Below are positions 54,036-57,870 of a stretch of 64,000 nt of DNA, in pieces. Source of the DNA: Mycolicibacterium rufum (GTDB taxonomy: Bacteria; Actinomycetota; Actinomycetes; Mycobacteriales; Mycobacteriaceae); NCBI RefSeq assembly GCF_022374875.2, contig NZ_CP092427.2, positions 3,224,001 to 3,288,000 of the forward strand, in the 5' to 3' direction. Made by a program: the position numbers and the translations under genes. Under the pieces are notes generated by a model. The model ran no database searches, was not told the DNA's origin, and worked only from the letters and a program-made list of their open reading frames with translations. The stretch's first letter is position 1. Each line of letters begins with the position of its first letter.

Positions 54036-54064
54036 TTGCGTCAGCTAGCACGTCAAACTATAGT
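54036..54064 (+). promoter_or_regulatory. Promoter of the glycosyltransferase operon
   Basis: TTGCGT (54036-54041), a 17-bp spacer and TATAGT (54059-54064) form a good SigA-type promoter. The predicted first base falls near 54071-54073, on the ATG of a short upstream ORF, and inside the palindrome at 54065-54080. Confidence 0.7.
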
Positions 54065-54080
54065 CTGGACACATGTCCAG
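54065..54080. promoter_or_regulatory. Operator palindrome, probably for the cluster TetR
   Basis: CTGGACA-CA-TGTCCAG has 7-bp perfect arms and follows the -10 directly. The tetR gene has the same core (GGACA-NN-TGTCC) at the same distance from its own -10, so one repressor likely binds both. A bound dimer would block transcription start. Confidence 0.65.
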
Positions 54081-54132
54081 GAGGGGTTCGGATTCCGTGC
54101 GTCACTCGATTCGACCAGCTCAGGACAGGTGA
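54073..54132 (+). CDS. Leaderless 19-codon upstream ORF
   Basis: An ATG exactly 8 bp after the -10 opens a 19-codon frame with five Arg, ending TGA 7 bp before the glycosyltransferase ATG. Its end overlaps the glycosyltransferase ribosome site AGGTGAG. Leaderless short ORFs of this kind are common in mycobacteria and can couple or tune translation of the next gene. Whether the peptide matters is unknown. Confidence 0.45.
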   Translation: MSRRGSDSVRHSIRPAQDR

Positions 54133-54139
54133 GTTGACC

Positions 54140-55375
54140 ATGCGTATCGCCTTGCTGTCCTACCGGAGCAAGACCCACTGCGGCGGACAGGGCGTCTACG
54201 TCCGGCACCTGAGCCGCGGCCTCGTCGAACTGGGCCACGATGTCGAGGTGTTCTCCGGTCAGCCCTATCCCGGCGGCCTGGACCCTCTCGTCCGCCTGAC
54301 GAAAGTGCCCAGTCTCGACCTGTACCGCGAGCCGGATCCCTTCCGCATCCCCCGGCCCAGCGAGATCAAGACCAGCATCGATCTGCAGGAACTGCTGACC
54401 ACCTGGACCGCCGGCTTCCCGGAGCCCAAGACGTTCAGCCTGCGCGTGGCGCGGCTGCTGGCCGAGCGGCGCGACGACTTCGACGTCGTGCACGACAACC
54501 AGTGCCTGGGCACCGGCCTGCTGAGCATCGCGGCGTCCGGACTGCCGGTGGTCGCCACCGTGCACCACCCCATCACCCGGGACCGGGTGCTCGACGTCGC
54601 CGCCGCCCCCTGGTGGCGTAAGCCGCTGGTGCGTCGGTGGTACGCCTTCGCGGAGATGCAGAAGGACGTCGCCCGGCGGATCCCCGAGTTGGTGACCGTC
54701 TCCTCCACCTCCGCCGCCGACATCGCCGAGGACTTCGCCGTCGACCCGCGTCAGCTCCACGTCGTGCCCCTCGGTGTCGACACCCAGCTGTTCGGACCGT
54801 CCGAGCACCGCGTGCGCAACCGCATCATCGCGATCGCCAGCGCCGACGTGCCGCTCAAGGGCGTCAGCCACCTGCTCCACGCGGTGGCGCGGCTGCGCGT
54901 CGAGCGGGACCTCGAGCTGCAACTCGTCGCCAAGCTGGAGCCCAACGGTCCCACCGAGAAGCTCATCGCCGAGCTGGGCATCTCCGACATCGTGCACAGC
55001 TCCAGCGGGCTCTCGGACACCGAGCTCGCCGAACTTCTCGCATCCGCCGATGTCGCGTGCATTCCTTCGCTCTACGAAGGCTTTTCGTTGCCTGCGGTCG
55101 AGGCCATGGCCAGCGGCACGCCGATCGTGGCCAGCCGCGCGGGTGCGCTGCCCGAGGTCGTCGGCGCCGACGGGGAATGCGCCCGGCTGGTGACCCCGGC
55201 AGACGTCGACGAACTCACCGCGGTGCTGGGGGAGTTGCTCGACTCGCCGCGGGAGCTGCGCAGGCTGGGCGAGGCGGGCCGGCGACGCGCGCTCGAGGTG
55301 TTCAGCTGGGAATCTGTTGCCGCACAGACGGTTGCGGTGTACGAACGAGCTCGGGAGAGGGTCGCCGCATGCTGA
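54140..55375 (+). CDS. GT4-family glycosyltransferase
   Basis: This 411-residue GT-B enzyme has the N-terminal acceptor domain (MRIALLSYRSKTHCGGQGVYVRHLSRGL) and the donor domain with VPLGVDTQLFG and the E-x7-E motif YEGFSLPAVEAMASGTP. It retains stereochemistry and uses a sugar nucleotide; the acceptor is unknown. The ATG at 54140 has AGGTGAG 6 bp upstream and is preferred over a TTG two codons earlier. First enzyme of a three-gene operon under the shared operator. Confidence 0.9.
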   Translation: MRIALLSYRSKTHCGGQGVYVRHLSRGLVELGHDVEVFSGQPYPGGLDPLVRLTKVPSLDLYREPDPFRIPRPSEIKTSIDLQELLTTWTAGFPEPKTFSLRVARLLAERRDDFDVVHDNQCLGTGLLSIAASGLPVVATVHHPITRDRVLDVAAAPWWRKPLVRRWYAFAEMQKDVARRIPELVTVSSTSAADIAEDFAVDPRQLHVVPLGVDTQLFGPSEHRVRNRIIAIASADVPLKGVSHLLHAVARLRVERDLELQLVAKLEPNGPTEKLIAELGISDIVHSSSGLSDTELAELLASADVACIPSLYEGFSLPAVEAMASGTPIVASRAGALPEVVGADGECARLVTPADVDELTAVLGELLDSPRELRRLGEAGRRRALEVFSWESVAAQTVAVYERARERVAAC

Positions 55376-56094
55376 CCGTGGACTTCGACCGCCTCGGCGT
55401 GGGAGCCGGAACCAAGGTCATCGACGTCGGCTGCGGGGCCGGTCGGCACACGTTCGAAGCCTTCCGCCGTGGTGCCGACGTCGTCGGATTCGACCAGAAC
55501 GCCGCCGATCTGAACGACGTCGACGAGATCCTGCAGGCCATGGCCGAGCAGGGTGAGGCGCCGGCCTCGGCGAAGGGCGAAGCCGTCAAGGGCGATGCGC
55601 TCGACCTGCCGTACCCCGACGCCACGTTCGACTGCGTGATCGCCTCGGAGATCCTCGAGCACGTGCCCGAGGACGATCGCGCCATCGCCGAGCTGATCCG
55701 GGTGCTCAAACCCGGTGGCGCGCTTGCGATCACGGTGCCGCGCTGGTTGCCCGAACGCATCTGCTGGGCGCTGTCGGACTCCTACCACGCCAACGAAGGC
55801 GGCCACATCCGCATCTACCGGGCCGACGAACTCCGGGACAAGGTGCTCGCCCACGGCCTCACGCTGACCCACACCCATCACGCGCATGCGTTGCACTCGC
55901 CCTACTGGTGGCTCAAATGCGCGGTCGGGACCGAGAAGGACGGGCACCCCGCCGTCACTGCGTACCACAAGCTGCTGGTGTGGGACATGATGAGCCGTCC
56001 CTGGCTGACCCGGACCGCGGAGTCGGCGCTCAACCCGCTGATCGGCAAGAGCGTGGCACTCTACTTCAGGAAGCCCACCACGACCGATGCCTGA
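55369..56094 (+). CDS. Class I SAM-dependent methyltransferase
   Basis: This 241-residue enzyme has motif I VIDVGCGAGRHTFEAF near residue 17, the acidic post-I region VVGFDQNAADL, motif II-like FDCVIASEILEHVPEDD and post-motif LKPGGALAITVPRW. The C-terminal half is rich in His and Trp (THTHHAHALHSPYWWLKC), perhaps for a bulky acceptor. Its ATG overlaps the glycosyltransferase end. It probably methylates a sugar or aglycone made by the cluster. Confidence 0.88.
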   Translation: MLTVDFDRLGVGAGTKVIDVGCGAGRHTFEAFRRGADVVGFDQNAADLNDVDEILQAMAEQGEAPASAKGEAVKGDALDLPYPDATFDCVIASEILEHVPEDDRAIAELIRVLKPGGALAITVPRWLPERICWALSDSYHANEGGHIRIYRADELRDKVLAHGLTLTHTHHAHALHSPYWWLKCAVGTEKDGHPAVTAYHKLLVWDMMSRPWLTRTAESALNPLIGKSVALYFRKPTTTDA

Positions 56095-57151
56095 GGTTCC
56101 CCACGTACCCGGTGCCTTCACGCGGGAACAGTGCCTGCAGACCGCGGAATCCATTGCCGCGACGCAGGAATCCTCGGGCGCGATCCCGTGGTCGGTCGGT
56201 GGCCACACCGATCCGTGGGACCACGTCGAGAACGCGATGGCGCTGACCGCGGCCGGCCTGCTCGAGCCCGCGCGGGCCGCGTTCGAGTGGTCGCGCACCA
56301 CGCAGCGCCCCGACGGCAGCTGGCCGATCCAGCTGCGTGACGGCGTCGTCGAGGACGCGAACAGCGACAGCAATTTCTGCGCCTACATCGCCACTGGTGT
56401 CTGGCACCACATGCTGGTCACCGAGGACCGGGCGTTCGCGGCCCAGATGTGGCCCGTGGTGTCCCGCGCCATCGACTTCGTCCTCGGTCTGCAGTCGAGC
56501 ACCGGCGAGATCGCCTGGGGCGCAAGCCCGCACGGGAGCACCGAGGAAGCCCTTCTGACGGGATGCGCGAGCATCTACCACAGCATCCGGTGCGCGCTCG
56601 CGCTGGCCGATCACGTCGGCGAACCGCAGCCCGAGTGGGAGGTCGCCGTCGGTCGGCTCGGCCACGCGATCGCCGACCACCCGGAGGCCTTCGTGGCCAA
56701 GGACCGCTGGTCGATGGAGTGGTACTACCCGGTGCTGGGCGGTGCGCTGCGCGGGTCGCGGGCACACACGCGGATCAACGAGCGCTGGGACGATTTCGTG
56801 GTTCCCGGCCTGGGGATCCGGTGTGTGGACGACCGTCCGTGGGTCACCGGGGCCGAAACCTGTGAGCTGGTCCTGGCTTTGGATGCGATCGGGGACCGCG
56901 CCCGCGCCCGCGAGCAGTTCGCCGCGATGCATCATCTGCGCGAGGAGGACGGTTCCTACTGGACCGGTCTGGTCTACGCCGACGACAAGCGTTGGCCGGT
57001 GGAACGCACCACCTGGACCGGGGCGGCGGTGATCCTGGCCGCCGATGCGCTGTCGTCGACCACCGCGGCCAGTGGGATCTTCCGCGGCGCAGACCTGCCG
57101 CGGGGCCTGGAAGCCGAGTACGACTGCGAGTGCGCGACCAGCGAACGCTAG
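56087..57151 (+). CDS. Prenyltransferase/terpene cyclase-like alpha-barrel protein
   Basis: This 354-residue all-helical protein has repeats of the QxxxGxW kind seen in squalene/hopene cyclases and protein prenyltransferase beta subunits ([10 protein letters not shown] near residue 26, TQRPDGSWP near 72, [11 protein letters not shown] near 137, REEDGSYW near 285). No DxDD cyclase acid motif is visible, so it may bind rather than cyclise an isoprenoid, or act as a glycan-binding or hydrolase-like alpha/alpha barrel. The ATG overlaps the methyltransferase by 8 nt; the stop overlaps the convergent methyltransferase. Confidence 0.78.
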
Positions 57152-57810: not shown

Positions 57811-57817
57811 GGTCCCC

Positions 57818-57823
57818 AACTTA
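57818..57823 (-). promoter_or_regulatory. -10 element of the O-methyltransferase-like gene
   Basis: TAAGTT on the minus strand ends 7 bp before the ATG at 57810, and there is no ribosome site, which fits a leaderless transcript. No clear -35 is seen. The tetR operator lies about 35-45 bp upstream. Confidence 0.5.
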
Positions 57824-57826
57824 CCG

Positions 57827-57855
57827 TTGCTGGTGGCACCGGGTTGTAGTAGCGT
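57827..57855 (+). promoter_or_regulatory. Promoter of the tetR gene
   Basis: TTGCTG (57827-57832), a 17-bp spacer and TAGCGT (57850-57855) match the layout of the operon promoter at 54036. The GTG start follows the -10 by 8 bp, so the mRNA is probably leaderless. Confidence 0.6.
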
Positions 57856-57856
57856 C

Positions 57857-57870
57857 CGGACATGTGTCCG
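57857..57870. promoter_or_regulatory. Operator palindrome overlapping the tetR start codon
   Basis: CGGACA-TG-TGTCCG is a perfect palindrome that contains the GTG start. The core matches the operator at 54065-54080, pointing to autoregulation and joint control of the cluster. Confidence 0.65.

Follow-up and report, generated by a model that had tools for sequence, protein, structure and literature searches.

The stretch of DNA analysed here comprises 64,000 nucleotides of Mycolicibacterium rufum (NZ_CP092427.2, positions 3,224,001 to 3,288,000; hereafter the window, to which the coordinates below refer) and contains the known four-gene cluster for synthesis of 3-O-methylmannose polysaccharide (MMP) together with a gene for a TetR-family regulator. 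Two palindromes of the form GGACA-NN-TGTCC occupy matched positions at two promoters of this region, that of the MMP operon (manT-pMeT3-mmpH) and that of tetR, and both are strongly conserved. We favour, at a probability of about 0.6, the explanation that this dodecamer is the operator of an autoregulated KstR-like TetR subfamily with two members, the TetR encoded beside the cluster (cluster TetR) and an Rv0767c-like paralogue encoded elsewhere on the chromosome, either of which could repress MMP synthesis through it.

At both promoters the -35 and -10 hexamers are separated by 17 nt, the palindrome begins 2 nt past the -10 box, and a start triplet (ATG at 54073 for the operon, GTG at 57864 for tetR) follows that box by 8 nt, falling at position 7 of an exact dodecamer. 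The operon dodecamer (O1) and the tetR dodecamer (O2) are reverse complements of one another. An earlier note on this sequence had described the same layout and judged such a match unlikely to arise by chance, and on both counts the analysis agrees with it: two exact palindromes are present in the window against 0.09 expected, a number reached in none of 100 dinucleotide shuffles, and the combined pattern TTGC-N19-TANNNT-NN-palindrome has two matches in the window and none in 100 shuffles. When up to one mismatch is allowed, the palindrome alone is not unusual in the window (3 found versus 2.81 expected). The whole genome (6.1 Mb) contains eight exact palindromes, compared with two matches to a reversed control pattern. 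A scan of positions 53950-58500 for the sigma-70 consensus did not find a promoter-like site; since mycobacterial promoters often lack a good -35 element, this result was not weighed. Read on the minus strand, positions 54065-54080, which hold O1, score as a terminator-like hairpin, with a 6-pair stem followed by a T-rich run, perhaps only on account of the palindrome.

Conservation was followed in the best 80 of 113 loci encoding a relative of MmpH and in further genomes; species may recur in both sets. The manT gene was sought in 144 loci and the window, and four stretches were without it (L064, L232, L233 and L259), leaving 141 readable loci, window included, with 114 distinct promoters. 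The operon palindrome is present with at most one mismatch in all 141 (124 are exact and 17 have A for G at position 1), and the -10 box reads TATAGT in 124. In all 95 loci compared, the tetR palindrome has its centre at the aligned tetR start; 63 copies are exact, 31 carry one mismatch and one carries two, and the -10 box is TAGCGT in 86. One operator shared by both promoters, as the note had proposed, is supported, and loss of the palindrome from relatives that keep the cluster, named there as grounds for refutation, was seen in none of the readable loci. The identity of the -35/-10 layout proved less general: it holds in the window, whereas the tetR -35 hexamer TTGCTG is missing from its place in some relatives (e.g. 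L041-L044 and L046-L049) that keep the -10 box and the operator. In a genus sample of 148 genomes, 119 bearing and 29 lacking the MMP genes, one or more matches to the pattern TANNNT-NN-GGACANNTGTCC are present in 103 of the former and in none of the latter, and its reversed control matches in 3 of the 148; a few of the matches, among those listed, sit outside the MMP and tetR sites. These comparisons support the view that O1 and O2, judged by their sequences, are one conserved operator over the predicted transcription start.

The cluster TetR has an N-terminal helix-turn-helix domain (PF00440, 51.3 bits versus a cut-off of 24) and the all-helical fold of the TetR family. Its closest solved fold is that of KstR (Rv3574), with a full-length profile match to the KstR chains in the PDB (E 4.7e-9 to 7.5e-9). 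KstR is the best NCBIfam match for the cluster TetR and the paralogue alike, but identity to KstR is only ∼21%, and the two proteins score 39 bits (39.2 for the cluster TetR against the curated model NF033703) and 49 bits, below the KstR cut-off of 280. The cluster TetR is accordingly KstR-like, not KstR, and the operator of KstR itself is a different sequence. The cluster TetR is encoded in 82 of the 148 genomes, all 82 with a match to mmpH, and in none of the 29 MMP-lacking ones. For EilR, a TetR repressor of Enterobacter, the relevant passages of PMC6127294 describe a consensus operator of 24 bp whose core is GGACACGTGTCC; therefore, a TetR-family protein is known to bind this dodecamer, within a longer site.

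The exclusive association with MMP genes agrees with the claim that the cluster is under its TetR, yet that claim stands only in part. Thirty-seven MMP-bearing genomes do not encode the cluster TetR, and manT is readable in 35 of them (the fragments from G103 and G111 are too short). All 35 keep an exact operon palindrome (GGACACATGTCC in 33, GGACAAGTGTCC and GGACAGGTGTCC in one each) and, therefore, the adjacent TetR is not the sole reason for retention of the site. Of the 37 genomes, all but G025 encode the paralogue (36), as do 34 of the 35 readable ones. In M. rufum it is the second-best TetR match to the cluster TetR (46% identity, E 1.3e-38; the next match has 1.6e-9); a P450 gene follows it, and the gene divergent from it encodes an aldehyde dehydrogenase. 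We take it to be the putative Rv0767c-type gene from these neighbours and from the M. tuberculosis gene order. At 46% identity to this paralogue, the cluster TetR is not itself the presumed Rv0767c-type gene, and the two coexist here and in 81 of the 82 genomes with the cluster TetR.

Two of the eight exact palindromes of the genome lie in the promoter region of the paralogue. A GTG start is centred in the same palindrome in 20 paralogue loci (that of M. rufum and 19 others), in one of which this GTG precedes the initially extrapolated start by eight codons, with the frame open between them; a second palindrome is found upstream in 19 of the 20. A recognition segment of 10 residues is common to the 94 cluster TetRs and the 20 paralogues compared, apart from two sequences in which S61 is replaced; the string AYTYFSSK is absent from all the others among the 24 TetR matches that this genome contains. 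Both groups thus have the same recognition helix and the same operator at their own starts (95 cluster TetR loci and 20 paralogue loci), as expected of one subfamily. A third TetR subfamily (L334-L343) is 51-53% identical to the paralogue and 37-40% to the cluster TetR; judged by eye, most of its ten loci have a GTG start centred in a weaker palindrome, for instance GGACCGGTGTCC, and a site within one mismatch stands exactly at the aligned start in only two of the ten.

Under the model of the note, the MMP operon would be controlled by the cluster TetR and no other repressor, acting at both palindromes; the paralogue would then use a similar site without acting here. Besides the restriction of the cluster TetR to MMP-bearing genomes (82/82), this would suit G002, a single contig rated 100% complete, which encodes the cluster TetR but no paralogue and has an exact operon site and a tetR site with one mismatch; it would also suit nine genomes of a diverged clade in which both MMP sites have the same outer-base change while the paralogue sites, seen in four of the nine, are canonical. 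We nevertheless regard it as unlikely, given the exact operator in all 35 readable genomes without the cluster TetR and the recognition segment and operator held in common with the paralogue.

A putative regulon of the Rv0767c type has been described. In the relevant sections of PMC6593523, a palindrome named 'motif X', similar to the Rv0767c site, adjoins 14 operons of a sterol-degrading strain and is also located close to where the Rv0767c orthologue has its start codon; the putative regulon includes P450s and aldehyde and short-chain dehydrogenases. The likeness to the paralogue locus lies in the palindrome near the start, the P450 and the aldehyde dehydrogenase, the motif being compared by its description in those sections. 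The M. tuberculosis sites of Rv0767c are enriched in GAC and GTC, as stated in a passage of PMC10312376, which fits GGACANNTGTCC. The MMP genes are not named in the portions of the Rv0767c and motif X accounts that were available (PMC6593523, PMC4482099 and PMC10312376).

Several observations weigh against the explanation that we favour. Strict co-variation of the operon and tetR operators is not seen, and one-base drift affects both sites in some genomes and one alone in others. The cluster TetR and paralogue groups differ at six of the 26 positions from 41 to 66 (44, 48, 50, 52, 53 and 64), and the argument for cross-recognition is drawn from helix identity and shared sites. According to the same sections of PMC6593523, earlier sterol data for M. 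smegmatis and R. jostii showed no rise in most genes of the putative Rv0767c-type regulon. Finally, G025, a genome 80% complete, keeps the operon site with no good match to either TetR. The last case, and the joint conservation of the -10 box and operator, would also be expected if the dodecamer were read by an unrelated factor or were a core-promoter feature whose association with TetR is incidental. That we consider very unlikely, because the palindrome runs beyond the predicted start site, the TetR genes themselves have this dodecamer at their starts, and the promoter-plus-operator pattern is missing from all 29 MMP-lacking genomes.

For the two-member subfamily the sequence-based elements are the position and conservation of the sites, the co-occurrence of the genes, the shared recognition helix, the same operator at the paralogue and the KstR-like fold; from these we infer start sites, binding, repression and cross-recognition as follows. 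Each TetR would repress its own gene by occupying its predicted leaderless start, and a dimer bound to the same operator over the predicted start of the MMP operon would block transcription. Where both TetRs are encoded the site is probably read by both, and in genomes without the cluster TetR probably by the Rv0767c-like protein alone. The inducer is, speculatively, an acyl-CoA, since no solved relative is nearer than KstR and sequestration of fatty acyl-CoA is the role proposed for MMP; unsequestered acyl-CoA would then raise MMP synthesis in a feedback loop. More tentative, and in our opinion rather doubtful, is the complete scenario in which free acyl-CoA, fatty or sterol-derived, lifts repression by two paralogous KstR-like TetRs with one operator and so increases MMP, and in which lineages without the cluster TetR leave the operon to an Rv0767c-like repressor of a lipid/sterol oxidation regulon.

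Both promoters had been called leaderless. The term would fit tetR, where the start codon is the operator centre and the -10 box precedes it by 8 nt in 95 of 95 loci, but not manT: the ATG at 54073 is not the start of this gene, which begins at 54140, and in the window and 79 loci the distance from the operator centre to the manT start further downstream is 43-154 nt (30-196 nt in further genomes). The ATG in O1 opens a small frame, and its conservation as ATG (133) or GTG (8) in all 141 operon sites, as well as the end of the frame 1-11 nt ahead of manT in 47 of the 114 distinct promoters, might suggest a leader peptide controlling manT by attenuation or translational coupling. The frame, however, varies from 8 to 35 codons in 111 of the 114 promoters and passes the manT start in the other three, and an excess of changes at third codon positions is absent in four tested groups, each of which has at least 5 distinct members and 12 codons. 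Moreover, any such palindrome placed over a +1 purine yields RTG automatically, the purine being followed by the TG of the operator. Position 7 is A or G in all 256 start sites (141 operon, 95 tetR and 20 paralogue), compared with 7 of the 19 second paralogue sites, as counted by eye in related, and hence not independent, genomes. Since the start triplet is conserved and the peptide is not, the small frame is probably a by-product of an operator over the +1 purine, and we hold control by a leader peptide to be very improbable.

An effect of the TetR on the divergent O-methyltransferase gene, meT1, had also been thought probable; the analysis does not support it. A frame-aware test looked for a TANNNT box 5-9 nt ahead of an in-frame start, and 89 of 94 meT1 loci have one, at 6-9 nt, where shuffled sequence would give 2.4; one further locus, the 95th, was excluded because it lay too far away. 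An earlier test with fixed aligned starts had given 6 of 95 against 2.7 expected, a low figure because the N-termini differ. The meT1 gene is thus probably leaderless, with a conserved promoter of its own, and in the window the operator occupies positions 48-59 nt ahead of the meT1 start. On opposite strands at 57818-57832, 3 nt separate the -10 box of meT1 from the -35 hexamer of tetR, so that the closely packed divergent promoters overlap. The operator might control meT1, but nothing ties the gene to it.

Three of the four products of the MMP cluster match solved structures at E < 1e-100 (Table 1), and a methyltransferase domain is encoded between manT and mmpH, so that ManT, pMeT3, MmpH and MeT1 are found together. 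The gene set is the same as that of the MMP cluster in the sections of PMC9883506 that describe it, and the operators, the adjacent TetR and the second TetR are additions of the present analysis. The third gene had been read as prenyltransferase-like; this is ruled out by the match of its product to MmpH, an endomannosidase, which extends nearly end to end (residues 3-354 of 354). The ManT match, 7qsg, is deposited under the name of another glycosyltransferase and is taken here as ManT because the codes of this entry and of the MmpH entry are close together and structures of both proteins are reported in PMC9883506. Entry 6g7d is deposited only as 'Methyltransferase domain protein', and the name MeT1 is one that we presume from the position in the cluster (PMC9883506). 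None of the six proteins tried exceeded an NCBIfam model cut-off among the matches listed. In G045 (C1:2905174-2906213) the mmpH match is in three pieces, which suggests a damaged gene, and the operon operator is intact. The gene immediately preceding the MMP promoter, in the same orientation, has a PNPOx_N domain (pyridoxamine-phosphate-oxidase-like, 53511-53966).

Table 1. Promoters, operators and genes of the MMP region, in window coordinates.
Feature	Coordinates	Strand	Description	Basis
MMP operon promoter	54036..54064	+	-35 TTGCGT 54036-54041, 17-nt spacer, -10 TATAGT 54059-54064	sequence
Operator O1	54067..54078		GGACACATGTCC, over predicted transcription start of MMP operon	conservation in 141 loci
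Small frame	54073..54132	+	19 codons, opened by ATG in O1; variable length	no third-codon-position excess in four groups tested
manT	54140..55375	+	alpha-(1->4)-mannosyltransferase of MMP synthesis	PDB 7qsg, 411/411 residues, E 1.5e-238; Glycos_transf_1; role per passages of PMC9883506
pMeT3	55369..56094	+	putative 3-O-methyltransferase	Methyltransf_11; place in MMP cluster per passages of PMC9883506
mmpH	56087..57151	+	MMP endomannosidase	PDB 7qsj, E 1.5e-203; no Pfam family
meT1	57148..57810	-	1-O-methyltransferase, divergent from tetR	PDB 6g7d, E 3.1e-119; Methyltransf_24
meT1 -10 box	57818..57823	-	TAAGTT, 7 nt ahead of the meT1 ATG	TANNNT box in 89/94 loci
tetR promoter	57827..57855	+	-35 TTGCTG 57827-57832, 17-nt spacer, -10 TAGCGT 57850-57855	sequence
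Operator O2	57858..57869		GGACATGTGTCC, centred on tetR start codon	conservation in 95 loci
tetR	57864..58433	+	KstR-like TetR-family regulator, 189 aa	

Elsewhere in the genome, an exact palindrome at L001:1501-1512 (G000:C1:753928-753939), examined together with L318 and L332, stands directly after TAGGGT; the genes downstream of it encode an ABM-domain protein and a short-chain dehydrogenase. The layout is kept at aligned sites in two of four relatives (G037 and G123; 16 of their 37 sites were fetched), and L001 may be a further member of the regulon. Three other exact palindromes were rejected as candidates: open frames place that of L003 inside a gene and that of L008 inside the 5' coding part of another, and that of L002, with a GTG at its centre, was treated as a chance occurrence because none of the 16 sites fetched from relatives matched it.

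According to passages of PMC9883506, mycobacteria have two polymethylated polysaccharides in the cytoplasm that are proposed to hold fatty acyl-CoA, of which MMP is one, and M. smegmatis grows more slowly at 15 °C when mmpH is lost. We found no report on control of the MMP genes in the open-licence literature, and a word search of the main text of PMC9883506 returned none of 'regulat', 'transcription', 'promoter', 'operon' and 'repress'. Each part of the proposed system belongs to a known kind; what is new, as far as literature searches show, is the assignment of regulation to MMP and its reading as a target of two repressors. A named operator and two candidate repressors make the control of MMP genes testable in a laboratory strain. 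Furthermore, retention of the operator in genomes without the adjacent TetR indicates that proximity alone can miss the regulator of an operon.

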